A DNA stretch of 64,000 nucleotides from Lysinibacillus sp. OF-1 (lineage in GTDB: Bacteria > Bacillota > Bacilli > Bacillales_A > Planococcaceae), in NCBI RefSeq assembly GCF_028356935.1, contig NZ_CP102798.1:930001-994000 (forward strand). The letters are read 5' to 3'. Made by a program: the position numbers and the translations under genes. Positions within the stretch are counted from its first letter, which is position 1; each line of letters opens with the position of its first letter. The notes under the pieces are model-generated. The model saw nothing but the letters and a program-made list of their open reading frames with translations, had not been told where the DNA came from and searched no databases. Below are positions 3,095 to 52,402 of this stretch, in pieces.

Positions 3095-3280
3095 TTAAAG
3101 TAAGCCTTGTGTACGTAGTTTACGCTTCATTTTAAAGGCTGTCATGAAAATGACACAAGTTGCCACAATACCTGCTATTGCACCAAATACACTACTAGCC
3201 GCAACAGAATAGCCGATAGAGCACATTGCTAGTACAGCTGCTAATGCATAGATAGCCATTACGATTTTTGCACGATTCAT
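3095..3280 (-). CDS. Small two-TM membrane protein, YlaF-like (DUF5325)
   Basis: A 61-residue protein with two hydrophobic segments (about residues 5-24 and 30-49) and a basic tail KMKRKLRTQGLL, so probably an integral membrane protein with a cytoplasmic C-terminus. AGGAGG stands 8 bp before the ATG. It lies next to typA, as ylaF (DUF5325) does in B. subtilis, and length and topology fit that family; the match is by context and composition. Function is unknown. It is divergent from typA across 138 bp. Confidence 0.65.
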   Translation of the reverse strand: MNRAKIVMAIYALAAVLAMCSIGYSVAASSVFGAIAGIVATCVIFMTAFKMKRKLRTQGLL

Positions 3281-3363
3281 AGCCTAGCCTCCTATATAAA
3301 AAATTTGTAAATCAAATATATTTTTTAGAATGATGGAAATTCTAATAAGGACATTTCTATCCT

Positions 3364-3418
3364 TCTTGTGCTATAATATCACAGTTAAACATTCGAAAAA
3401 AGAATATGGAGTGGAATA
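3364..3418 (+). promoter_or_regulatory. Probable sigma-A promoter and leader of typA
   Basis: An extended -10 element TGCTATAAT (TATAAT at 3372-3377) lies about 40 bp before the typA ATG. No good -35 is visible, which is usual for extended -10 promoters. GGAGTGG at 3407-3413 is the ribosome binding site. Confidence 0.55.
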
Positions 3419-5263
3419 ATGACAAACTTACGTCAAGATCTTCGCAATATCGCAATTATCGCCCACGTTGACCATGGTAAAACTACCTTAGTCGACCAAT
3501 TACTAAAACAATCAGGTACATTCCGTTCAAACGAACGTGTTGAAGAACGTGCAATGGACTCTAATGATATTGAACGCGAACGTGGTATTACGATTTTAGC
3601 TAAAAATACAGCAGTAAACTATGAAGGAACTCGTATCAACATCCTTGATACGCCTGGACACGCTGACTTCGGTGGTGAGGTAGAACGTATTTTAAAAATG
3701 GTAGACGGCGTTTTACTAGTTGTCGATGCGTATGAAGGTTGTATGCCTCAAACACGTTTCGTACTGAAAAAAGCATTAGAACAACGCTTAACACCAATCG
3801 TTGTTGTTAATAAAGTAGACAAAGATTCAGCTCGTCCACTAGAAGTAGTGGATGAAGTGCTTGAATTATTTATCGAGTTAGGTGCAGATGACGATCAATT
3901 AGATTTCCCTGTTGTCTATGCTTCAGGTGTAAATGGTACAGCTTCTTTGGACGCTGATCCATCTAAACAAGAAGAAAATATGAAATGTCTATTCGAAAAA
4001 GTGATCGAGGCTATTCCAGCACCAGTAGATAACTCAGAAGATCCATTACAATTCCAAGTAGCTCTACTTGACTATAATGACTTCGTTGGACGTATCGGAA
4101 TTGGTCGTGTATTCCGTGGAACAATTTCTGTAGGTCAACAAGTTGCACTGATGAAATTAGACGGCACAGTGAAAAACTTCCGTGTAACGAAAATCTTTGG
4201 TTTCTTCGGTTTAAAACGTGAAGAAGTAGAGACAGCAAAAGCTGGTGATTTAATCGCCGTTTCAGGTATGGAAGACATCAACGTTGGTGAAACAGTTTGT
4301 CCTGTTGAACACCAAGAAGCGCTTACACCATTACGTATTGATGAGCCGACTTTACAAATGACATTTTTAGTAAACAATTCGCCATTCGCAGGTCGTGAAG
4401 GGAAATGGGTTACTTCTCGTAAAGTAGAAGAGCGTTTACGTGCTCAATTACAAACGGACGTATCTTTACGTGTTGAAGATACTGATTCTCCAGATGCTTG
4501 GACAGTTTCAGGTCGTGGTGAGCTTCATCTATCAATTCTTATTGAAAATATGCGTCGTGAAGGTTTCGAATTACAAGTATCTAAACCGCAAGTAATCGTG
4601 CGTGAAATCGACGGCGTAAAATGTGAGCCATTCGAACGTGTTCAAATCGATGTACCAGAAGAAAATGTTGGTTCAATTATTGAATCAATTGGTGCACGTA
4701 AAGGTGAAATGCTTGATATGGTGAACAACGGCAGTGGTCAAGTTCGTTTAACGTTCTTAGTACCAGCTCGTGGTTTAATTGGTTATACTACTGAATTCAT
4801 GTCGATGACAAAAGGTTTCGGTATCATCAACCATACGTTTGATTGCTACCAACCATTACTACCAGGTAAAATTGGTGGACGTCACCAAGGTGTACTAGTT
4901 TCAATGGAAACTGGTAAATCAACAACTTATGGGATGATGCAAATTGAAGACCGTGGTACACTGTTCTTGGAGCCAGGTACAGATATTTACGAAGGTATGA
5001 TCGTTGGAGAAAATACTCGTGACGCTGATATCACTGTAAACATCACAAAAATGAAACAAAAAACAAACATCCGTTCAGCAAATAAAGACCAAACGAATGT
5101 TATTAAAAAACCACGTATTTTATCTTTAGAAGAAGCGCTTGAATACCTAGGTGATGACGAGTACTTAGAAATCACACCAGAATCTATTCGTCTGCGTAAA
5201 AAAATTCTTGATAAAAATGAACGTGAGAAAGCAGCGAAAAAATTACGTAACGCAGAACAATAA
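3419..5263 (+). CDS. typA: Ribosome-associated GTPase TypA/BipA
   Basis: A 614-residue translational GTPase of normal length. The G domain shows G1 [10 protein letters not shown] (about 15-24), the switch I region RERGITI, G3 [11 protein letters not shown] and G4 NKVDKD. It is followed by EF-G-like domains and a BipA-type C-terminal domain. TypA binds the ribosome and helps 50S assembly and translation under stress or cold; that role is from the family. ATG at 3419 follows GGAGTGG. In B. subtilis it is ylaG, and its ylaF and ylaH neighbours are present here too. Confidence 0.98.
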
Positions 5264-25732: not shown

Positions 25733-26920
25733 ATGAAAGCTTTATTCCGCATTTTAATGGTTTGTGGCGCAATTGCATTAATTGGCTTTATGTTTTTCAA
25801 TACCCCGCAGGAAAATGAGCCGTTAGAAGGACCAAATACCAATTCTAATATAATCCCTCAAACACAACTAAAGCAACAGTCTGCTGTAGGAGCAATGACA
25901 CGACCTCAAACAGGCATATCAACTTTGGTAGGAAAAGGCATTCAAACCGTTTTAGAGCAATATGGGGAACCAACGAGAAAAGAACCGTCTTCATTTGGCT
26001 ATCAATGGTGGGTCTACAATAAAGATGTTGCTACGTTTTTTATGATTGGTGTTGAAAATAATATTGTAACGCAAGTTTACATAGCTGGACAAGAAATCGA
26101 TGCATTTCCTTTTAAAGTTGGACAAAAACGCGATGAAATATACCGTATGACGATTATTGATTATGAGGTAGCGGCCACTGTGGGAGAAAATATTTTCATT
26201 TTCTCGATGAGTGAAGAAGATATGCAAACAAGGTTGCTTGTCAAATTTGATGGCCTTTATGCACAGCTTTATATAGATAGGGAGACAAGTGAGCTACAGG
26301 GAATACGTTATACAGACAGTGAAACACTTGTCCTTCATCAACCATATGAAATGAGTTATCAAGGTGAACTAGTGAGACGTACGCCACCGTCTTCATTTTT
26401 GCAGCAAGAAATCGATGTAGCTAGCGCCAAACAGCTTGATGATCTCTTAAATGTTACGAGGGTACATCATGAATTACCACCTTTAGCAATGGATGAATCA
26501 TTAGAAGAAGCTGCAAAAATGCATAGTGAAGATATGAAGGTGCAAAATTTCTTATCACATGAGTCTCCAACTAATGGAGATTTAAAAAAGAGATTACAGG
26601 CACATGACATCGACTATAGTGCAGCGAATGAAAATCTTGCCACTGCTTATTTTGATGCGATAGAAGCTATGCATGGTTGGACAAATTCGCCTGAACATAG
26701 GAAGGTGTTATTGGATGATCGATATACACGCGTTGGTTCCGGTGCTTTCGTAGATTATTATACGCAAATCTATATAGAGCCTACTGCACAGACGATGGAT
26801 AGTGAAGAGCAAGATAGAAAAAAACAAGATATTGAAGAACAGGATAACGAAGAACAGAGAAATAAAGAACCAGATAGTGAGGACCCTGTAGAGAATACAG
26901 AGCAATCCTCCTCATCCTAA
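25733..26920 (+). CDS. ylbC: CAP-domain secreted/anchored protein YlbC
   Basis: A 395-residue protein with an N-terminal hydrophobic signal or anchor (about residues 5-22). Next is a CAP-associated domain (about 60-200), then a CAP/SCP domain (about 230-350) showing SHESPTNGDLKKRL, NENLATAY and HGWTNSPEHRKVLL. The family match is to B. subtilis YlbC (about 346 residues). A tail of roughly 40 residues (EEQDRKKQDIEEQDNEEQ and on) is acidic and repetitive, and may explain the extra length. CAP proteins of bacilli are often sporulation-linked, but the role of YlbC is not established. ATG follows AAGGAG. Confidence 0.85.
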   Translation: MKALFRILMVCGAIALIGFMFFNTPQENEPLEGPNTNSNIIPQTQLKQQSAVGAMTRPQTGISTLVGKGIQTVLEQYGEPTRKEPSSFGYQWWVYNKDVATFFMIGVENNIVTQVYIAGQEIDAFPFKVGQKRDEIYRMTIIDYEVAATVGENIFIFSMSEEDMQTRLLVKFDGLYAQLYIDRETSELQGIRYTDSETLVLHQPYEMSYQGELVRRTPPSSFLQQEIDVASAKQLDDLLNVTRVHHELPPLAMDESLEEAAKMHSEDMKVQNFLSHESPTNGDLKKRLQAHDIDYSAANENLATAYFDAIEAMHGWTNSPEHRKVLLDDRYTRVGSGAFVDYYTQIYIEPTAQTMDSEEQDRKKQDIEEQDNEEQRNKEPDSEDPVENTEQSSSS

Positions 26921-27017: not shown

Positions 27018-27046
27018 CACACCGTTACAAACGCCGTCATATGATA
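27018..27046 (+). promoter_or_regulatory. Mother-cell-type (sigma-K/sigma-E-like) promoter of the MurE-like gene
   Basis: CACA (27018-27021), 16-bp spacer, CATATGATA (27038-27046). This matches the sigma-K consensus (mACm, 16-17 bp, CATAnnnTA) at every specified position. Read as sigma-E, the -10 agrees at 6 of 8 positions. It lies 24 bp before the TTG start. No sigma-A-like -35/-10 pair was seen in the 93 bp after the ylbC terminator. Confidence 0.6.
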
Positions 27047-27070
27047 GAGAACGGAAAGGGGGAATGAGGC

Positions 27071-28543
27071 TTGCAACTAGCTGAGTTATTAAAAGATTGG
27101 CCATGTAGTGTGACAGGAGGATCCATTCGAACAGAAATTACAGGCGTAGAAGATTATGCACAGGCCGTACAACCCGGCGACATTTTTATTGTACGAAAGG
27201 GCAAAAAAACATCAGGAAGTCGTTTTGTTAAAGAAGCGTTGGCACGGGGGGCTGCTGCCATTGTTTCGGAAGAAAGTATTTCTTTGCCGATTATGGATAA
27301 AGAAATTCCTTTTGTGTGGGTTCCGAATACAGCATTATTTTTATCGTATGCGAGTGCGAAGCTTGCTGCTTTTCCAGCAGAGGCTTTAACGGTTATTGCC
27401 ATTACCGGTACAAATGGAAAGACCACGGTGAGCCATTTTGTTAGTCAGCTTCTAAATGCCTTACATAAAAAAGCAGCAGTTATTGGAACGGTTGGCTTTT
27501 TCATCAATGGCGAGAAACAACAAACGGCTTACGAGCAACTAACAACATTGCAGGCCAAAGAATTGCATCCGATATTAAAGCAATGTGTACGAAAAGGGGT
27601 TACACATGTTGTGCTAGAAGCTTCTTCAATGGGCTTACAGCAGCATAGACTCGACCATTGCGATATTGACTGTGGTGTATTTTTAAATCTATCAGAAGAC
27701 CATTTAGAAGATCATGGTGGTTTAGAAGCATATAAACGTGCAAAAAAAAGATTAGCCGATTTATCCAAAAAGTTAGTATTAAATGGAGATGATAACTTTT
27801 GTCGTTCTGTAGGGATTTATGATAAGAAAAAATCCTGTTCATTTGGCTTTGATAATCACAATGATCTACATATTCAAATTGTCAGTGAAACAGTTGGAAA
27901 AACCGTACTTTGCTTACAAACAACAGCGAGTGAGCATATTGTGGAAATTCCTTTTGTCGGAAAATATCATGTACAAAATACTATTGCTGCCTTAATGGCT
28001 ATATGGCGCCTAGGTGTCCCGATGGAAGATCTAGTTGGTCATATGTGGTCCTTAAAACTACCAGAAGGACGACTTGAGAAGATTGATAATCCTTTGGGTA
28101 TAGAGGTTTATGTAGATTATGCGCATACAGCAGAAGCCTTACAAGCCGTTTTACAAACCTTTAATCGTTCCAAAACAATTTACCTTGTTTTTAGTTGTGG
28201 TGGAAATCGTGATAAGGCGAAGCGCTTCGCCATGGGAGCGGTAGCAAGTAAATACGCGGACGTTATTTATTTAACAACAGATAATCCACGAGATGAAGAT
28301 CCAATCGTGATAAATGAAAGCATTATTGCAGGCTTTACAGAGCAACAATATTATGAAATTTACTTAGATCGGAAGCTTGCTATCCATCAAGCGTTAGCAA
28401 AGGCGAAAAAGGGCGATATTGTCCTTGTGGCCGGAAAAGGGCATGAACAAACACAGCAAATTAAAAATCAAAAATTGCCTTTTTCCGATCAACAATGCAT
28501 CAAAGATTATTTTGCCAGTCTCATTACAGACGACGCTGAATAA
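27071..28543 (+). CDS. MurE-type UDP-MurNAc-tripeptide synthetase, displaced from the dcw cluster
   Basis: A 490-residue Mur ligase of normal MurE length. The N-terminal MurE domain contains VQPGDIFIVRKGKKTSGSRF. The ATP loop is TGTNGKTT (about 112-119), the carbamylated Lys lies in EAYKRAKKRL, and the C-terminal domain carries TTDNPRDEDP (DNPR about 404-407), the motif typical of meso-diaminopimelate-adding enzymes. It departs from common MurE at SSMGL (usually SSHAL) and EDHLEDHG (usually QDHLDYHG). The TTG start has AAAGGGGGAA 7 bp upstream. It stands alone between ylbC and a thioesterase, behind a sigma-K/E-like promoter, so a sporulation role is inferred. Confidence 0.88.
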   Translation: MQLAELLKDWPCSVTGGSIRTEITGVEDYAQAVQPGDIFIVRKGKKTSGSRFVKEALARGAAAIVSEESISLPIMDKEIPFVWVPNTALFLSYASAKLAAFPAEALTVIAITGTNGKTTVSHFVSQLLNALHKKAAVIGTVGFFINGEKQQTAYEQLTTLQAKELHPILKQCVRKGVTHVVLEASSMGLQQHRLDHCDIDCGVFLNLSEDHLEDHGGLEAYKRAKKRLADLSKKLVLNGDDNFCRSVGIYDKKKSCSFGFDNHNDLHIQIVSETVGKTVLCLQTTASEHIVEIPFVGKYHVQNTIAALMAIWRLGVPMEDLVGHMWSLKLPEGRLEKIDNPLGIEVYVDYAHTAEALQAVLQTFNRSKTIYLVFSCGGNRDKAKRFAMGAVASKYADVIYLTTDNPRDEDPIVINESIIAGFTEQQYYEIYLDRKLAIHQALAKAKKGDIVLVAGKGHEQTQQIKNQKLPFSDQQCIKDYFASLITDDAE

Positions 28544-29021
28544 TAAAGAAAGATCCTGTAGCAATAGCCAGCTTGCGACCTGTCTCATCTTCGATATCAC
28601 ATTCCATGACGAGTGTTTGACGTCCTTTATGAACAAAACGACCGCGCGCAATCAATTCTTTATTCGTTGTTGTGGCAATATACGATAGATTCATATTCGT
28701 TGTAACCACATTATATCCCTCTGGTACAGAGCGTGAAGCAAGTCCGCCCATAGCTGCATCGGCAATTGTTGCAATAATGCCACCATGAGGCACCTTAATT
28801 GTATTATGAATAACTGGTGTAATAGGGATACGAACCTCACTAATTTCAGGCTCAAATTTACCTGCCATATGTAGGGCAGCATTAAGATAACGACGATGAA
28901 TGCCTTGCTGCTTCTCTCTTAGCCCATTTAAAAGATGTAATAAAACTTCTTCATCTTCCTCAGTACTTTCTTGTAAAATTTCAGCTAGTAATTGTTCTAT
29001 CTGTCCTTTAGATGTTGTCAT
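28524..29021 (-). CDS. PaaI-family hotdog thioesterase
   Basis: A 165-residue acyl-CoA thioesterase-like protein with an N-terminal helical extension of about 50 residues and a hotdog domain. The conserved segment is KVPHGGIIATIADAAMGGLA (about 86-105), followed by NLSYIATT and GRFVHKGRQTLVMECDI, as in PaaI/YiiD-type thioesterases. The substrate is unknown. ATG at 29021 is chosen with AGAGG about 10 bp upstream; an in-frame ATG at 29042 lies before that site. Its 3' end overlaps the MurE-like gene by 20 bp, tail to tail. Confidence 0.85.
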   Translation of the reverse strand: MTTSKGQIEQLLAEILQESTEEDEEVLLHLLNGLREKQQGIHRRYLNAALHMAGKFEPEISEVRIPITPVIHNTIKVPHGGIIATIADAAMGGLASRSVPEGYNVVTTNMNLSYIATTTNKELIARGRFVHKGRQTLVMECDIEDETGRKLAIATGSFFIIQRRL

Positions 29022-29111
29022 TAATTGGCAAACCTCTTTCATTAAAAGTATCAATAATGTAAAATTACCATAAAATCTGTTATGATGGGAAAGAGATTGG
29101 GGGAATTAAAA

Positions 29112-29558
29112 ATGATGATGACCTCTGACTGGGTACTCATTTTGGATGAGACCGAAGCGCTTTGTGAGATGATTCTTTCCTCAGAACCTGCGATTGCGCT
29201 ACAGCAAGCGTATGATGCAGTCTATAGTGATGCACAAATTGTAGAAGCTATTTACGCATTTAATCGCATGAAAGAGCAGTACGAAGATGTACAACGTTTC
29301 GGAAAATATCATCCAGACTACCATACAATCATGAAGTCAATTCGCCAACAGAAAAGGGCACTTGACTTGAATGAAAAAGTTTCAGCTTTAAAAATTGCTG
29401 AAAACGATTTTCAGGATTTACTCGATGAGATTAGCCTATTAATAGGTAAAACAGTCTCTGAAGCTGTAAAAGTTCCTGTTAGTAACCCATTCTTTGCATC
29501 TGGTTCATCTTGCGGAGGAGGATGTGGCTCGGGCGGCTCATGCTCTTGCTCAGCATAA
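29112..29558 (+). CDS. ylbF: YlbF (RicF), Y-complex subunit
   Basis: A 148-residue helical protein matching YlbF/RicF in length. The core contains YDAVYSDAQIVEAIYAFN and KYHPDYHTIMKSIRQQKRALDLNE. In B. subtilis it joins YmcA and YaaT to promote RNase Y-dependent mRNA processing, competence and sporulation, and the complex carries iron-sulfur clusters. The last 17 residues form a Cys/Gly/Ser tail, SSCGGGCGSGGSCSCSA, with four Cys that could serve as cluster ligands. ATG at 29112 follows GGGGGAA by about 7 bp. Confidence 0.92.
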   Translation: MMMTSDWVLILDETEALCEMILSSEPAIALQQAYDAVYSDAQIVEAIYAFNRMKEQYEDVQRFGKYHPDYHTIMKSIRQQKRALDLNEKVSALKIAENDFQDLLDEISLLIGKTVSEAVKVPVSNPFFASGSSCGGGCGSGGSCSCSA

Positions 29559-43918: not shown

Positions 43919-43947
43919 ACATTATTTAATAAAGTGGGGTGAGTAGT

Positions 43948-44379
43948 ATGTTCATGGGAGAATATCAACACTCCGTTGATGCAAAAGGGCGAATAATCGT
44001 ACCGGCAAAATTTCGTGAAGCTTTAGGCGAAACGTTTGTTGTCACAAGAGGTCTCGATAACTGTCTATTTGGCTATCCTATGAATGAATGGCGAAAACTC
44101 GAAGAAAAATTAAAAGGTTTACCAATGACCAAAAAAGATACCCGAGCATTTGCAAGGTTTTTCTTTTCTGGAGCAACAGAGGTAGAAATAGACAAGCAAG
44201 GGCGTATCAATATCCCAACTACTCTCATGCAACATGCACATCTTGTAAAAGAGTGTGTGGTGTTAGGGGTTTCAAATCGAATTGAGATTTGGGCAAAAGA
44301 TGCTTGGGAAGCTTACTTTAGTGAGTCTGAACAATCTTTTAATGAAATTGCAGAAAATATGATTGGCTTTGATTTTTAA
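43948..44379 (+). CDS. mraZ: Transcriptional regulator MraZ
   Basis: A 143-residue protein with two AbrB-like MraZ domains, each with the DxKGR signature: [19 protein letters not shown] at residues 4-22 and [14 protein letters not shown] near 85-98. MraZ is the dcw-operon repressor and binds phased GTGG/TGGG repeats, present just upstream. ATG at 43948 follows GTGGGGTGAG. It is the first gene of the division and cell-wall cluster. Confidence 0.96.
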
Positions 44380-44440
44380 CTTTTATAGGTATTACAACGC
44401 GATAGTTGTATGAGGTTAAGGCCTGAAAGGAGCGTGTGGT

Positions 44441-45391
44441 ATGTTCGATCATACAACCGTGTTATTAAAAGAAACTGTTGATGGGTTGAACATCGATCCT
44501 GATGGTGTATATGTGGACTGTACGCTAGGTGGTGCAGGTCACAGTGAATATTTAGTACAACAATTATCAGATAAAGGTCGTTTGATTTGCTTTGACCAAG
44601 ATACGACGGCCATTGAAAATGCGAAAATTCGATTAGCGCCCTATATTGAGCGTGTTACATTTATTCATTCGAATTTCCGTTATTTAAAAGAGGAACTAGT
44701 AGCTCATGGTTTCGAGCAGGTTGATGGCATTTTGTATGACTTAGGCGTATCTTCTCCACAATTAGATACACCTGAACGAGGCTTTAGCTATCACCATGAT
44801 GCACCACTTGATATGCGTATGGATCAAACAGCAACGCTGACAGCATTTGATGTTGTCAATCATTGGGCATATGAAGATCTCGTTCGGATATTTTTCCGTT
44901 ATGGGGAAGAAAAGTTTTCAAAGCAAGTGGCTCGTAAAATCGAAGAAGCTCGTAAAGTAGCTCCAATTGAAACAACTGGTCACCTTGTAGAATTAATTAA
45001 AGAGGGTATTCCAGCAGCGGCACGCCGAAAAGGTGGACATCCAGCAAAGCGCATTTTCCAAGCAATACGAATTGCTGTCAATGATGAGCTAGGCGCAGCA
45101 GAGGATTCATTAGTCGATGCGATTGATATGATTAACGTAGGGGGGCGCATTAGTGTCATTACGTTCCATTCATTGGAGGACCGCCTATGTAAGACAATCT
45201 TTAAGGAAGCGTCATCATTACCGGAATTACCACCAAACTTACCTGTAATTCCTGATGACATGAAGCCAACTTTAAAGCTGATTACACGAAAGCCAATTAT
45301 TCCTTCTGATGAAGAATTGGCAGTCAATAATCGTGCACGTTCAGCGAAGCTTAGAGTGGTGGAGAAAATTAACGACAAAGGGCGTGAGTAA
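44441..45391 (+). CDS. rsmH: 16S rRNA (cytosine(1402)-N4)-methyltransferase RsmH
   Basis: A 316-residue SAM methyltransferase (MraW). It has [13 protein letters not shown] at the start, the SAM loop [14 protein letters not shown] (about 26-39), [13 protein letters not shown], and the C-terminal [21 protein letters not shown] block. ATG at 44441 follows AAAGGAGCGTG. The stop is directly followed by the ftsL ATG. It modifies C1402 in the ribosomal P site. Confidence 0.97.
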
Positions 45392-45763
45392 ATGGCAGCA
45401 GTTCGTGTAAGGCAACAGCACCAACATCAACAAGTGCAACAACCGATAACACCACCTAGTCCACAACCCACTATCATACGTCGTAAAAAACCGAACCAGA
45501 AGTTTGAAAAGACAATGCTACTTGCTTTAGTTGGCATTATTATAGTTTTAGGAGTAATAGTGTTAAATAAACAAGCAGCTATTCAAACAACAAGTATAGA
45601 CATTCAAAACATTGAATCAGAAGCAGAAGAGATTGCGAAACAGAATGTTGACTTGACGGTTCGTGTGAGTGAACTTTCTACATACGAAAACATATGGAAA
45701 AAAGCGAAAGAACTCGGTTTAACTCAAAATGAGAAAAATGTAAAGGTAGTGCCGGGAGAATGA
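45392..45763 (+). CDS. ftsL: Cell division protein FtsL
   Basis: A 123-residue bitopic division protein. It has a basic cytoplasmic N-terminus rich in Gln and Pro, one TM helix (about 48-66), and an extracytoplasmic leucine-zipper-like coiled coil (about 68-105). It is low in sequence conservation but fixed in place between rsmH and pbpB. It forms a septal complex with DivIB and DivIC. ATGA overlap with pbpB implies translational coupling. Confidence 0.9.
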   Translation: MAAVRVRQQHQHQQVQQPITPPSPQPTIIRRKKPNQKFEKTMLLALVGIIIVLGVIVLNKQAAIQTTSIDIQNIESEAEEIAKQNVDLTVRVSELSTYENIWKKAKELGLTQNEKNVKVVPGE

Positions 45764-47982
45764 AAAAAAAGAGATTTCGATTCCAATGGGGAGCCTTTCT
45801 ATTATTAATTTTTTATGGAGGGCTCTTTTTTCTATTATTTACAAGAATGGTGACGATTCAGGCGACAGGGGAAGTAGAAGGACAAGAGCTTGCAGCGAGA
45901 GCCGCAGCGAAGTATGGTAAAGAAAGTGTACTTACAGCAAATCGTGGGAAGATTTATGATCAAAATGGGCAAGTAATTGCGGAAGATACATTAAGTTACC
46001 GCATAATTGCCATTGTAAGCGAAAAGGCTACGACAGATCCTAAGAAACCAAGACATGTAGTAGATTCTGAAAAAACGGCCGAGGTTTTGGCTAAGTATAT
46101 TCCAGCAATGAAGGACAATGAAGAAGAGATTGTTAAAAAACTGAACAATCGATATAGAAGTGATGGCGAGCCTTTATACCAAGTTGAGTTTGGCAGCGCT
46201 GGACGAGGCATTAGTCACGAAGTCATGAGTAAAATAAAGGATGAAAAATTACCAGGAATCCTATTTGTCAGTGACTTAAAACGTTATTATCCAAATGGTG
46301 TATTTGCCTCCCATTTAATAGGCTATGCACTGAAAAAGGATAATGAAGATGGAACAGTTACAACAAAGGGAGAAATGGGCCTAGAGTATACGTACGATAA
46401 AGAGCTAACAGGCGTCAATGGCAAGATTAAATATGAGACGGATGCATTCCATTACTTACTCCCAAATAGCGAGAAAATGGTGACACCTGCCAAAAACGGG
46501 AATGACATTTATTTAACGCTCGATAAAACAATCCAAAGCTTTTTAGAGGAAGCAATGACAAAGGTTGAACAGGAATATAATCCTGAATCTATGACAGCGG
46601 TCGTAGCAGATCCGAAAACAGGGAAAATTTTAGCGATGTCTCAGCGTCCTACGTTCAACCCTGAAACACGTGAAAGTCAAAATATGAAGTGGTTGAATGA
46701 GGTGATTGAGGAGACAATCGAGCCTGGATCAACGATGAAAACATTCACGCTTGCTTCAGCTATTGATACAGGAAAATGGACACCGAATGAATGGTTTATG
46801 TCAGGATCATATACAGTATTTGACCGTACGATTCGAGATCACAATAGATATGGTTGGGGACCGATTACTTATTTAGAAGGGTTCCAACGATCTGCCAATA
46901 CGGGTATGGCCCATTTATTAACGAAGATTGGTGATGATGTCTTTATTGAATATCTGGACCGCTTTGGTTTTGGTCATAAAACAGGTATTGATTTACCGAA
47001 TGAAGCGGCAGGTACTATTTTATCGAAGTATCCTATTCAACGAGTGACAACAACTTACGGCCAAGGTTCTACAGTAACGCCTATTCAGTTAATCCAAGCG
47101 ATGACAGCAATTGCGAATGATGGAAAAATGATGCAGCCGTATGTTATTGATCGTATTGTCGACTCATCAACTGGAAAAGTTATTCAAAAGCACGAGCCCG
47201 TGGAAAAAGGACAACCAATTAAAGCTGATACAGCGAAACAAGTACGAGAAATCCTTGCTTCAACGTTAACCTCAGAAAAAGGTACGGCGAAGGATTTTAT
47301 ACTGGAGGATTATGAGGTTGCTGGGAAAACGGGTACTGCCCAAATTCCAAAAGCTAGTGGTGGATATCTTTCAAACCAATACCTCTATTCATTCTTAGGC
47401 TTGGCTCCTGTAGACGATCCACAGTTAATTGTCTATGTCTCAGTGAAAAAACCTAAGTTGAGCAACGAGCTTGGATCTGTACCAGTGTCAAAAGTATTTA
47501 ACCCAGTTATGTTAAATAGCTTAAAGCATCTTAACATCAATCCAGATGATGTACAGCATGTCAATAAAGTTAGTATACAAGATTATACAGGTCAAAGTGC
47601 TGAAGCCGTGGAGGTAGAATTAGCGAATGATGGTTTACAGCCAATCATTGTTGGCGCTGGTGGTAAAATTATTGAACAATATCCAACGAACACTCAAAAA
47701 CTTGTAAAAGGTAGTTTTATATTTTTAAAGACAGATGGCGAAATAACATTGCCAGACTTTACGAATTGGTCATTACGCAATTTACTTGTTTTTAAATCCA
47801 TGACAGGGCTAGAGATGGAAATTTTCGGTGAAGGCTTTGTAGCGAGTCAAAGTGTATCCGCAGGAACTATCATCACTGATAGTTCACCGATTGTTGTCAA
47901 GCTCAAAACACCTGCAGAAAGCTTTGTGCAAGATGTTGAAGCCCCCGCTGAGGGTGAAGTTGAAGAAATAGAGGATGAATAA
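45760..47982 (+). CDS. pbpB: Penicillin-binding protein 2B, septal transpeptidase
   Basis: A 740-residue class B PBP. An N-terminal TM (about 8-30) is followed by a PBP dimerisation domain and a transpeptidase domain with EPGSTMKTF (SxxK), RSANTGMA (SxN) and AGKTGTAQ (KTG). Two PASTA-like repeats lie after residue 600. A Glu-rich tail ends the protein. It is the essential septal transpeptidase that pairs with FtsW. ATG overlaps the ftsL stop. Confidence 0.96.
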   Translation: MKKKRFRFQWGAFLLLIFYGGLFFLLFTRMVTIQATGEVEGQELAARAAAKYGKESVLTANRGKIYDQNGQVIAEDTLSYRIIAIVSEKATTDPKKPRHVVDSEKTAEVLAKYIPAMKDNEEEIVKKLNNRYRSDGEPLYQVEFGSAGRGISHEVMSKIKDEKLPGILFVSDLKRYYPNGVFASHLIGYALKKDNEDGTVTTKGEMGLEYTYDKELTGVNGKIKYETDAFHYLLPNSEKMVTPAKNGNDIYLTLDKTIQSFLEEAMTKVEQEYNPESMTAVVADPKTGKILAMSQRPTFNPETRESQNMKWLNEVIEETIEPGSTMKTFTLASAIDTGKWTPNEWFMSGSYTVFDRTIRDHNRYGWGPITYLEGFQRSANTGMAHLLTKIGDDVFIEYLDRFGFGHKTGIDLPNEAAGTILSKYPIQRVTTTYGQGSTVTPIQLIQAMTAIANDGKMMQPYVIDRIVDSSTGKVIQKHEPVEKGQPIKADTAKQVREILASTLTSEKGTAKDFILEDYEVAGKTGTAQIPKASGGYLSNQYLYSFLGLAPVDDPQLIVYVSVKKPKLSNELGSVPVSKVFNPVMLNSLKHLNINPDDVQHVNKVSIQDYTGQSAEAVEVELANDGLQPIIVGAGGKIIEQYPTNTQKLVKGSFIFLKTDGEITLPDFTNWSLRNLLVFKSMTGLEMEIFGEGFVASQSVSAGTIITDSSPIVVKLKTPAESFVQDVEAPAEGEVEEIEDE

Positions 47983-47986
47983 TACT

Positions 47987-48015
47987 GAATAGAAGTCCAC
48001 TTTATTTCATACGTT
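47987..48015 (+). promoter_or_regulatory. Sigma-E-like promoter of spoVD
   Basis: GAATAGA (47987-47993), 14-bp spacer, CATACGTT (48008-48015), about 25 bp before the spoVD ATG. It matches the mother-cell sigma-E pattern (kmATATT, 13-15 bp, CATACAmT) at 5 of 7 and 6 of 8 positions. B. subtilis spoVD also has a sigma-E promoter here. Confidence 0.6.
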
Positions 48016-48039
48016 GTAAAAAACAAGGTGTGATGTCGA

Positions 48040-49956
48040 ATGAAGTGGATTTCTATCCATTCTAAAAAGCGTTTACGTATTTTATATGTGTTGTTTATGT
48101 GTGTGGCTGTGGCAATTATTGTAAGACTGCTCTTTTTGCAAGTATTAGATCAAAAAGAACTGACAACGAAGGCAGAGGAGAATTGGGACCGAGAAATCCC
48201 ATTTGCAAATGAACGTGGGCATATTACAGATCGAGATGGTGAAAGCATCGTAACCAATAAGCTAGCTCCAACCTTGTATTTCATGCCTTCACAAAGTAAG
48301 GATATTGAAGGGGCTGCAGAAAAAATTGCGCAAGTTCTGGAAGTAGACAAAGAGAAGCTACTAGAGAAAATGCAGAAAAAAGCCTATTTAGTGAAGTTAG
48401 CGCCGGAAGGGAAAAATATACCCTATGAAAAAGCGGTGGAATTACAAGGTATGCAAATTGAAGGATTATACAGTGGTGTGGACTATTCTAGGGATTATCC
48501 TTACGGCACACTCTTATCTCGATTTTTAGGCTTTACTGGCTATGATGCTCAAGGCTTAGCTGGGATTGAATATGAATATGATAAATTATTGCAGGCTAAT
48601 TCTTCTGCGATTCGCCTCTTTACAGATGCAAAAGGTAATAATTTACCAAATGTTTCGAGTGCATGGAAAGCGGGAGAGGATGGTGCAACGATTGAGTTAA
48701 CCATCGATGTCGATGTCCAGCAGGTTGTTGAGCGTGAATTGTCACAAGCTATGAAGCGCTATGAAGCTGACCAAGCATTGGCTATTGCTATGAATCCAAA
48801 TAATGGTGAAATTTTGGCATTAGCCTCCTATCCGACTTTCCATCCAGCTGAATATCAATTAGTAGAGCCTGCGATTTATAATCGAAATTTACCTGTATGG
48901 ATGACATACGAGCCTGGTTCAACTTTTAAAATTATTACCTTGAGTGCAGCCTTGGAAGAAAATTTAGTGGATTTAGAACATGATACTTTTTATGACCCAG
49001 GCTATACAATGGTTGCTGGTGCAAGGCTTCGCTGTTGGAAGCGTGAGGGGCATGGGCATGAAACATTTTTAGAGGTAGTTGAAAACTCCTGTAACCCAGG
49101 TTTTATAGAATTAGGACAGCGGTTAGGTAATGAGCGGTTGTTGCAATATATTAAAGATTTTGGTTTTGGTCAAAAGACAGGATCTAATATTGCTGGTGAA
49201 GCTTCAGGGATTTTATTTTCTAAGGAAGCCTTTGGACCTGTTGAGCAGGCCACCACTTCATTTGGGCAAGGGGTAGCCGTGACACCTATTCAACAAGTGC
49301 AGGCAGTAGCTGCTGCAATCAATGGAGGCAAGCTCTATACGCCATATGTTGTGAAAAAGGTATTTAATCCGAATACAGGGGAAGTTATACAAGAGACGGA
49401 GCCAGTTGTTAAAAATCAGGTGATTCGTGAGGAGACATCTGCCAAAGTACGAGGCGCATTAGAATCGGTAGTGGCGAATGGTTCAGGTCGACAAGCCTTT
49501 CGTGATGGCTTACGAATTGGCGGTAAAACAGGAACCGCACAAAAGGTTGAAAATGGTCGTTATAAAAGTGGAGAATATATCGTATCATTTATAGGCTTTG
49601 CGCCTGCAGACAATCCGCAAATTGTCGTCTATGTAGCTGTTGACAATCCGAAAAAGACAACACAGTTTGGCGGTGTTGTAGCAGCACCGATTGTTGGGCA
49701 AATTATTGAGGATGTTGCACCTTTTGTAGGTATTGAAAAATCGAAGGAACAGCTTGAAAAGGATTATCGTTATGGTGATCCAATTACTGTGAAGGTACCG
49801 AATTTTATTGGTCAAACAAAAGATGATATTGCCAAGCAATTTTATCCATTCCGCATAGAATGGCATGGGGAAGGGACCAAAATTGGTAACCAATTACCTG
49901 AAGTGGATAGTGTTATCAAACAAGATGGTACCATTCATTTATATTTGGAGAACTAA
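48040..49956 (+). CDS. spoVD: Sporulation penicillin-binding protein SpoVD
   Basis: A 638-residue class B PBP paralogous to PBP2B. It has one TM (about 12-32), transpeptidase motifs EPGSTFKI, ENSCNPGF and GGKTGTAQ, and a single C-terminal PASTA domain (VPNFIGQTKDDIAKQF). It makes spore cortex peptidoglycan with the SEDS partner SpoVE, encoded three genes later. ATG follows AAGGTGTGATG, and a sigma-E-like promoter precedes it. The PBP2B/SpoVD split is by order and PASTA count. Confidence 0.95.
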   Translation: MKWISIHSKKRLRILYVLFMCVAVAIIVRLLFLQVLDQKELTTKAEENWDREIPFANERGHITDRDGESIVTNKLAPTLYFMPSQSKDIEGAAEKIAQVLEVDKEKLLEKMQKKAYLVKLAPEGKNIPYEKAVELQGMQIEGLYSGVDYSRDYPYGTLLSRFLGFTGYDAQGLAGIEYEYDKLLQANSSAIRLFTDAKGNNLPNVSSAWKAGEDGATIELTIDVDVQQVVERELSQAMKRYEADQALAIAMNPNNGEILALASYPTFHPAEYQLVEPAIYNRNLPVWMTYEPGSTFKIITLSAALEENLVDLEHDTFYDPGYTMVAGARLRCWKREGHGHETFLEVVENSCNPGFIELGQRLGNERLLQYIKDFGFGQKTGSNIAGEASGILFSKEAFGPVEQATTSFGQGVAVTPIQQVQAVAAAINGGKLYTPYVVKKVFNPNTGEVIQETEPVVKNQVIREETSAKVRGALESVVANGSGRQAFRDGLRIGGKTGTAQKVENGRYKSGEYIVSFIGFAPADNPQIVVYVAVDNPKKTTQFGGVVAAPIVGQIIEDVAPFVGIEKSKEQLEKDYRYGDPITVKVPNFIGQTKDDIAKQFYPFRIEWHGEGTKIGNQLPEVDSVIKQDGTIHLYLEN

Positions 49957-50019
49957 AATAACTTTACCTTTAAAAAATGGGAAAGAACCACTATTATTAT
50001 GAAGGGTAGTAATAAATAA

Positions 50020-50085
50020 ATGAAAGTTTATGCTTTTTTCTTAAAGAAGAAAGTGAAACAAGATTTAAAGGAGATTTTTCAATGA
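50020..50085 (+). CDS. Candidate 21-codon leader ORF coupled to mraY
   Basis: A very short, basic ORF ([20 protein letters not shown] and one more residue) whose TGA overlaps the mraY ATG (ATGA). GAAGGG lies about 13 bp before its ATG. It sits where murE is found in B. subtilis. It could be a coupling leader peptide or chance; there is no family evidence. Confidence 0.3.
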
Positions 50086-51053
50086 AACTCGCAACAACAC
50101 TTACCATTTTAGCTCTTGCTTTTATAGTAACAGTTATCCTGGCACCAATTAGTATTCCACTTCTTCGTCGTCTAAAGTTTGGGCAAAGTATTCGTGAAGA
50201 GGGACCAAAATCACATATGAAAAAAGCTGGTACACCAACAATGGGAGGAATCATTTTTTTAATATCTATCGTCCTTACAACTGTTGGTGTAGGTAGCTTT
50301 TTAGATTTATTAACGACACAAACCGTAGTACTTTTATTAGTATTAGCAGGGTTTGGTTTAATAGGTTTATTGGATGATGGTTTAAAAGTTGTATTTAAAA
50401 GAAATTTAGGTTTAACTTCTCTTCAGAAGTTGATTGGTCAAATTGTTATTGCTATTCTTGCTTATTTCCTGCTGTATGTAGGATCATTTGATACAACGCT
50501 CGCTATTCCGTTTACTGAGTGGACAATAGATCTTGGGGTATTCTATGTAGCCTTTTTAATTTTCTGGCTAGTAGGCTTCTCCAATGCCGTAAATTTGACG
50601 GATGGTTTAGACGGGCTAGTGGCAGGCACTGCTTCAATTGCCTTTGCAGCATTTGGCGTTATTGCGCTCTTCCAAAATCAAGCGGATATTGCACTATTTA
50701 CATTTGCTGTAACAGGTGCTTTATTAGGATTTTTATTATTTAATGCCAATCCTGCCAAGGTATTTATGGGAGATACGGGTTCGTTAGCATTAGGTGGGGC
50801 ATTAGCGATGGTATCTGTGCTAGTAAAGGAAGAATTCTTGCTTTTGCTAGTTGGTTTAGTGTTTGTTATCGAAACATTATCCGTTATTTTACAGGTAGGT
50901 AGCTTTAAGCTTCGCAAAAAGCGTATTTTTAAAATGAGTCCTATCCACCATCACTTTGAATTATCAGGTTGGTCAGAATGGAAAGTCGTGCTTGTCTTCT
51001 GGTCAACTGCTCTAGCAGTAGCATTGATTGCAGTCTTATCGGAGGCGTTCTAA
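50082..51053 (+). CDS. mraY: Phospho-N-acetylmuramoyl-pentapeptide transferase MraY
   Basis: A 323-residue ten-TM enzyme making lipid I from UDP-MurNAc-pentapeptide and undecaprenyl phosphate. Conserved parts are [23 protein letters not shown] (about 36-58), GLLDDGLKV, the catalytic [15 protein letters not shown], and [13 protein letters not shown] near the end. ATG follows AAAGGAG. It is separated from spoVD by 125 bp with no murE between. The stop overlaps the murD start by one base. Confidence 0.97.
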
Positions 51054-52402
51054 TGAAAAACTATACAGATTTACAACATAAAAAAGTACTTGTGTTAGGT
51101 CTAGCAAAGAGTGGTGTAGCCGCTGCTGAAATTTTACATGAGCTTGGCGCCTTTGTAACCGTCAATGATTCCAAACCATTTGATGAAAGTCCAGATGCAC
51201 AAGGTTTATTACAAAAGGGGATTACAGTGATTTGTGGTCGTCATCCTGAAGATTTACTAGATGAAGGCTTTGAATTAGTAGTCAAAAATCCTGGGATACC
51301 ATATAGCAATCGAATTGTGGCTGATGCCCTTCGTCGTGAAATACCTGTCTGGACAGAGATTGAGCTTGCTTATTTAATTAGCGATGCGCCATTTATTGGT
51401 ATAACAGGATCAAATGGCAAAACCACAACGACAACTTTAATTTTTGATATGTTAAATAGTGGGAGTAAAAATCCTCTAATTGCGGGGAATATTGGGACAG
51501 TAGCCTGTGGTGTCGCAAAAGAAGCTAATAAAGATGACATCATTGTAACTGAATTGTCTTCATTCCAATTGATGGGAATAAAAACGTTTAAGCCAAAAAT
51601 CGCTATTTTAACAAATCTTTATGATGCACATCTTGATTATCATGGGACATTTGACAATTATGCTGGAGCAAAGTTTGGTGTGACACGTAATCAAGATGAT
51701 AGTGATTATTTTATTTATAATGCGGATCAACCGATTGTTGTTGGATATGCAGCACAATCGAATGCTCAAAAAGTTCCATTCAGTTCAAAGGGACGTACTA
51801 CAAGCGGCATTAGTGCAGATGAGACAACGATTTATTGGCAAGGTGAGCCATATATGGAGCGTGCTCATATCGCCCTGCCTGGCAAGCATAATTTAGAAAA
51901 CATCCTAGCAGCCGTTGCAGCTTGTATTTTAGTTGGCTGTGACAAGGCGAAGATGGAAGAGGTGTTAGCGACTTTTGGTGGCGTTCGTCACCGTACACAA
52001 TTCGTTCGCGAATGGAATGGTCGAAAGATTTACAATGATTCTAAGGCAACCAACTGCTTAGCAACAAAGAGTGCTTTAGATGCTTTCCAAGCACCTATTA
52101 TTTTACTCGCAGGTGGCTTAGATCGTGGACATTCTTTTGAAGAACTTCGCCCTTGTATGCAGCATGTAAAAGGTGTTGTTGCATTTGGAGAAACAGGCTT
52201 ACGCTTTGTAGAATTTGCAAAGTCGTGTGGTGTCCAACAGACAGTCATTGCCCAAAATGTAGAAGACGCTGTACACTATGCAGCACCGATGTCGGCAGAG
52301 GGAGATATTATCTTACTATCTCCAGCATGTGCAAGCTGGGATCAATATGACAGCTTTGAAATACGCGGAGATGTTTTTATTGATGCTGTAATGAAGCTGT
52401 AA
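51053..52402 (+). CDS. murD: UDP-N-acetylmuramoylalanine-D-glutamate ligase MurD
   Basis: A 449-residue cytosolic Mur ligase that adds D-Glu. The N-terminal Rossmann region is VLVLGLAKSGVAAAEIL, the ATP loop is ITGSNGKTTTTTL (about 117-129), then NLYDAHLDYHGTFDNY and the C-terminal NDSKATNCLATKSAL and LLAGGLDRG. ATG at 51053 overlaps the mraY stop (TAATG). The ribosome binding site is the GGAGG inside mraY. Confidence 0.97.
   Translation: MKNYTDLQHKKVLVLGLAKSGVAAAEILHELGAFVTVNDSKPFDESPDAQGLLQKGITVICGRHPEDLLDEGFELVVKNPGIPYSNRIVADALRREIPVWTEIELAYLISDAPFIGITGSNGKTTTTTLIFDMLNSGSKNPLIAGNIGTVACGVAKEANKDDIIVTELSSFQLMGIKTFKPKIAILTNLYDAHLDYHGTFDNYAGAKFGVTRNQDDSDYFIYNADQPIVVGYAAQSNAQKVPFSSKGRTTSGISADETTIYWQGEPYMERAHIALPGKHNLENILAAVAACILVGCDKAKMEEVLATFGGVRHRTQFVREWNGRKIYNDSKATNCLATKSALDAFQAPIILLAGGLDRGHSFEELRPCMQHVKGVVAFGETGLRFVEFAKSCGVQQTVIAQNVEDAVHYAAPMSAEGDIILLSPACASWDQYDSFEIRGDVFIDAVMKL

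Follow-up and report, generated by a model that had tools for sequence, protein, structure and literature searches.

The window analysed here, a stretch of 64,000 nucleotides from Lysinibacillus sp. OF-1, carries at 27071-28543 on the forward strand a gene that very probably encodes a second cell-wall ligase, used at the spore stage only and putting diaminopimelate (DAP), not lysine, into the cortex. We observe two MurE types in the genome, each with its own motif, together with a conserved promoter, fixed synteny, and presence and loss in step with sporulation genes; a stage-specific, mother-cell meso-DAP ligase for cortex precursors is the best reading, and one in which we place high confidence. 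The gene is also a strong candidate for an activity described in Bacillus sphaericus around 1970: Tipper and Pratt (in 1970) and Linnett and Tipper (in 1974) reportedly found a DAP-adding enzyme induced at sporulation in that organism, the cortex of which contains DAP. Host group, expected activity and expected timing are the same in both cases, and L. sphaericus 2362 carries the window gene; the difference is that the older work was biochemical, whereas the present finding is a gene, known from sequence alone. No gene assignment for the B. sphaericus activity was found in the open-licence literature searched, and MurE has no occurrence in the main text of Galperin et al. 2012 (PMC3533761). 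The original prediction had named the gene as a candidate for this cortex-specific enzyme should the host be a Lysinibacillus, and that candidacy is supported by a second murE of the Lys type, a sporulation-linked distribution and a mother-cell-type -10 element.

The open reading frame begins with TTG, 8 nt downstream of a likely ribosome-binding site, AAAGGGGG (27055-27062, forward strand), and encodes a complete MurE of 490 aa that is 100% identical to a protein of L. fusiformis Juneja 1. Membership is given both by family model and by three-domain architecture: the protein scores 436 bits against TIGR01085 (cut-off 257) and 443 bits against the DAP-ligase model NF001126 (cut-off 373), and all three Mur ligase Pfam domains (PF01225, PF08245 and PF02875) are above cut-off. 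DNPR occupies residues 404-407, providing the Asn and Arg at motif positions 2 and 4 that characterise meso-DAP-adding MurE (EC 6.3.2.13). A complete Mur ligase with this motif had been predicted, and reading frame, models and domains confirm it. Predicted departures from common MurE at SSMGL and EDHLEDHG are likewise real, the former being common to the whole clade: EASS followed by M, L, I or Q occurs in 31/31 rows of the window type, and SSH in 23 DAP-type rows from other families and 29 rows of the vegetative type described below. Searched against Rfam, the 64-kb window gave no match at or above a family's gathering score.

The surroundings of the gene are conserved. Upstream lies a ylbC-like CAP-domain gene (25733-26920, forward strand) and downstream a ylbF-like gene (29082-29558, forward strand), both conserved neighbours, with a convergent PaaI-like thioesterase gene (28524-29054, reverse strand) present here and at some other loci; these names are presumed assignments. 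Of 29 loci compared, 27 have the window-type MurE between the ylbC-like and ylbF-like genes; the remainder, L172 and L173, are different MurE-like genes that genus g4 carries at another site. As predicted, the gene lies outside the dcw cluster, which is in the same window, from mraZ to murD at 43939-52402, and has no murE between spoVD and mraY. We take the order to be mraZ (43939), mraW, ftsL, pbpB, spoVD, mraY (50082) and murD, with ftsZ, a sigE-like and a sigG-like gene farther on. The 125-base spoVD-mraY junction (49957-50081, forward strand), the site of murE in some other Bacilli, is without it here, and a scan of the 1,500 bases upstream of mraY within its locus for a MurE C-terminal motif (GKGHE or SKGRE) was negative in all 23 family genomes tested, the same scan detecting a MurE motif in three of five genomes outside the family. 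One genome of family f37 (G358; loci L236 and L249) has both types, the DNPR enzyme still before mraY and the DDPR enzyme elsewhere, which is a possible intermediate arrangement.

The host genome contains ten matches to Mur_ligase_M, two of which are MurE over 1e-60. The second of these (G000:C1:832245-833723, ~123 kb from the window gene) is 32% identical to the window protein and has the motif DDPR, as do 29/29 rows of this vegetative type over the family. Among solved structures it matches the S. aureus L-lysine ligase best (484 bits, against 309 for the next); the T. maritima LD-lysine ligase also has DDPR. Of 35 distinct family loci, 30 have prfC next to this gene (by rows, 31 of 37, with two genomes represented twice), and prfC also adjoins MurE in 4/4 loci that we guess to be staphylococcus-like (f9 and f41), the three of these that were read having DNPA. 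The combination taken to indicate an L-Lys-adding enzyme, a DNPA or DDPR motif together with S. aureus kinship, thus fits the host's other MurE and not the window protein, and the DDPR enzyme beside prfC is taken as the vegetative lysine enzyme. The genome accordingly holds two MurE enzymes rather than one, and the Lys-type murE that the original prediction said to look for was found, by kinship and by motif. The accompanying assertion that Lys-adding MurE lacks the Arg fails, as the host's vegetative enzyme is DDPR; since the Arg is kept, the discriminating difference is Asn in the window type versus Asp in the vegetative type. In L. sphaericus 2362 the window type (at 94%) is accompanied by a DDPR type (as G040, matched by identical coordinates). 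Both host enzymes pass NF001126, the vegetative one with 523 bits, so that automatic annotation can give them the same name, a point on which users of such annotation should be warned.

Upstream of the window gene lies a sigma-K-like (mother-cell) promoter, CACA-N16-CATATGATA (27018-27046, forward strand), in which CACA at 27018-27021 is separated by a 16-base spacer from CATATGATA at 27038-27046, and which fits the sigma-K consensus. The pattern [AC]AC[AC]-N16-CATANNNTA has one match on both strands of the window versus 1.0 expected; the match is therefore not significant by itself and was rejected as evidence on its own. Its weight comes instead from conservation within Lysinibacillus and from enrichment of CATANNNTA before orthologues across the family. 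CATATG[AC]TA stands at the same place in 19/19 Lysinibacillus rows (18 genomes, L018 and L041 being one; 16 of 19 identified Lysinibacillus loci were used), within a conserved block beyond which the upstream DNA diverges. Of 28 window-type genes sampled across the family, 25 have CATANNNTA in the 140 bases upstream, where shuffled sequences predict 1.48; L101, L102 and L106 lack it. The rows are related rather than independent, and their script-set start codons are doubtful in four (L164, L168, L176 and L177). The corresponding count for vegetative-type genes is 0/22 (0.99 expected), and the background rate among other genes of the same loci is 49/497, or 9.9%. Such a conserved -10 is the property looked for in a member of the mother-cell regulon. 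The full sigma-K consensus, including the -35, is present in 3 of the 28 rows, all Lysinibacillus, the other genera sharing the -10 only, so that sigma-E may be the factor in those genera. The predicted match to sigma-K hence holds within Lysinibacillus, where the conserved block fits it, but does not extend beyond, where only the -10 is common.

The distribution of the gene follows that of sporulation. Among 253 family genomes from 19 genera, SpoIVA was found in 189; the window type is present in 185 of these and in 0 of the 64 SpoIVA-negative genomes, as expected of a sporulation gene, present in spore formers and absent from close non-formers. It can also serve as a marker separating the two within the family. 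Best E-values against a 25-protein window-type profile fall into two separate groups, at or below 1.6e-164 in the 185 genomes and from 7.2e-120 to 1.3e-106 in all 64 SpoIVA-negative ones; this search scored six candidates per genome, and the 64 were also scanned with the MurE family model, every candidate being scored (60 + 4). A first count of 177/189 SpoIVA-positive genomes, at E < 1e-89 and again with six candidates scored per genome, was too low, and the apparent lack of the window type in eight g17 genomes was rejected, as their genes were found by the family model and are window-type, in agreement with the profile. Extra MurE-like genes in the non-sporing genus g12 (45/46 genomes) were considered as counter-examples and discarded: the nine sampled (L184-L192) have DHPG, DDLN or NNPG, and the four placed in the tree all fall outside the window clade. 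SpoIIIAE, sought in 58 of the 253 genomes, was found in 24/24 window-type carriers, 0/30 SpoIVA-negative genomes and one of the four SpoIVA-positive genomes without the window type, all four of which belong to genus g4. That one (G015) has a divergent gene at the ylbC-ylbF site, a 439-codon frame with 32% identity that has DNPR but GKGNE. A tree built from MraY alone, with 23 genomes of the family, counts four losses of sporulation, three of them on supported branches; each goes together with loss of the gene, but four events are too few for a sign test to become significant (p 0.25). A clear DDPR type (E <= 2.7e-176) is present in 229/253 genomes and was missing from all 19 g13 genomes, the four g4 genomes and G240; 165 of the 185 window-type carriers have both types, the others being those of g13 and G240.

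These data bear on the possibility that the window gene, as a spare MurE or one used under certain conditions, supplies DAP (or Lys) to the vegetative wall too, with the sporulation promoter just adding to its expression. The promoter evidence amounts to one site per gene, which leaves room for growth-phase promoters, and in genus g13 (19 genomes, 4 of them scanned with the family model) no DDPR MurE was found and the alternative MurE-like gene is very divergent, so that the window type could serve both stages there. Nevertheless, the type is kept in none of the 64 SpoIVA-negative genomes, and both g13 rows are among the 25 of 28 with the mother-cell-type -10; we consider this explanation improbable. 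The divergent MurE-like protein of g13 and g4 (L160-L163, L154, L155, L158 and L159) may be the vegetative MurE of these genera; the six rows L154, L155, L158, L160, L162 and L163 read ATNGKT, show KDVV where DNPR would stand, and lack KGHE.

Turning to specificity, an alignment of 25 window-type proteins shows no variation at D404, N405 or R407; these three residues also occur in 31/31 rows, five of which differ at Pro406, and every window-type row combines an intact nucleotide site with the DAP-type Asn and Arg. In alignments with solved structures the DNPR of the window protein faces that of two DAP enzymes, from E. coli and M. tuberculosis; according to PMC3829189 the E. coli motif is at 413-416, and its Asn and Arg are hydrogen-bonding residues in the DAP carboxyl site. 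With these two enzymes (1e8c and 2wtz) the window protein has in common the domains, P-loop, DNPR and GKGHE, but the window type differs from them in forming a separate clade, in having EASS[MLIQ] rather than SSH, in its location outside dcw and in its mother-cell-type promoter. The Lys-adding MurE of S. aureus (4c12/4c13), of the same family and kin to the host's other MurE, has DNPA (PMC3829189) in contrast to the DNPR of the window protein. DNPR is not a sufficient determinant of DAP use, because the S. aureus A409R variant gained no DAP activity (PMC3829189). Nor do the scores of the window protein against solved structures discriminate substrate, at 247 bits for the M. tuberculosis DAP enzyme (2wtz), 242 for the T. 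maritima LD-lysine enzyme, 229 for the E. coli DAP enzyme and 226 for the S. aureus Lys enzyme. A MurE tree including both host types had been proposed as a check, and in a tree of 52 rows they form separate clades: all window-type rows fall into one clade (99/98), the DAP-type enzymes from other families into a second (99/92), and the vegetative type into a third together with DNPA enzymes and the f15 DDPR enzymes (99/96). A long stem sets the window type off from the dcw DAP-type clade as well as from the Lys-type one, and the tree alone is therefore no proof of DAP specificity. DAP enzymes of other families and the vegetative type differ at 26 alignment columns; of these, the window type is DAP-like in 13, vegetative-like in 4 and neither in 9, a comparison from which kinship was not removed.

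A further indication comes from a divergent gene of ~243 aa between ylbC and MurE in seven genera (g2, g11, g13, g14, g17, g19 and, through G015, g4), at 17 of 29 loci (for example L169, L107 and L176). It encodes an amino-acid kinase (PF00696), the best NCBIfam match of which is the aspartate kinase model NF006068, at positions 3-245 of 405; it scores 228 against a cut-off of 474 because only the first part of the model is covered. The missing second half is where ACT domains are expected. Aspartokinases have KFGGTS, as against K[FY]GG[VIW]AM in the partner, and aspartokinase activity is therefore uncertain. The partner has its own CATANNNTA, the mother-cell-type -10, in 14/21 loci, and no copy above 35% identity was found in 12 genomes of genera without it beside MurE. 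Since aspartokinase is the first step towards DAP, partner and MurE may be read as a module of supply and use. MurE and this neighbour have decayed jointly in two of the three g4 genomes lacking SpoIIIAE: in G012 and G014 only C-terminal remnants of the two genes are left at the ylbC-ylbF site (L315, ~3442-3852; L316, ~3131-3891).

The same observations weigh on a second alternative, a sporulation-specific MurE that adds lysine (or either amino acid) as a dosage copy for a burst of precursor synthesis. According to PMC3829189, a MurE may be only loosely specific, with the pools of amino acids determining what it adds. The window protein also matches the T. maritima LD-lysine enzyme no worse than it matches DAP enzymes. 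Against this stand the invariance of Asn405 and Arg407, where the Lys-type clade has Asp or lacks Arg, the excess of DAP-like over vegetative-like discriminating columns (13 versus 4), the divergent neighbour related to the first DAP-pathway step in seven genera and the presence of DAP in the B. sphaericus cortex, and we judge a lysine-adding copy very unlikely. That the protein is a MurE-like ligase with another job, such as peptide recycling or poly-amino-acid synthesis, and merely happens to be expressed at sporulation is scarcely credible, as, although motifs such as DHPG and DDLN mark further MurE-like paralogues in the family, the window type lies outside the DHPG and DDLN clades, scores above curated MurE cut-offs and, in every row, keeps an intact nucleotide site along with the Asn and Arg of the DAP type.

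For the preferred reading, a DAP ligase of the mother cell, we infer amino-acid specificity, timing and cortex use, and the following sequence of events is envisaged. In vegetative cells the lysine-type MurE (DDPR, beside prfC) would make L-Lys wall precursors; at sporulation a mother-cell sigma factor, sigma-K or sigma-E, would transcribe the window gene, the product of which would add meso-DAP to UDP-MurNAc-L-Ala-D-Glu; and later enzymes assumed to be shared (MurF, MraY and MurG) would convert this product to DAP lipid II for the cortex. A search for MraY gave one match. In B. subtilis, cortex and vegetative wall are made from the same precursors (PMC10659427), and sigma-K control of precursor accumulation is the subject, by its title in the reference list of that article, of Vasudevan et al. 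2007, which would likewise be mother-cell control of cortex precursor synthesis. Unlike this single precursor set, a separate MurE in Lysinibacillus would change the chemistry of the precursor. If this is correct, a gene would be assigned to a developmental enzyme described only as an activity, and the question of ~1970, why the cortex must contain DAP when the other wall uses lysine, would be open to genetic test.

On a wider scale, wall chemistry is likely to be switched by gene pairing throughout the family: lysine-walled spore formers would preserve DAP in the cortex by means of a separate mother-cell MurE, which many genera pair divergently with an aspartokinase catalytic domain that lacks the ACT half and could supply DAP free of lysine feedback, both genes being lost with sporulation. 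Other members of the Mur ligase family were seen in passing. MurE-like paralogues with the DHPG motif occur in the non-sporing g12, in g5 and elsewhere (L184-L186, L256 and L181-L183), and one locus (L010:7262-13924) has three clustered Mur-ligase-like genes of 730, 488 and 471 aa, the first with an N-terminal half that we read as YheC/YheD-like.
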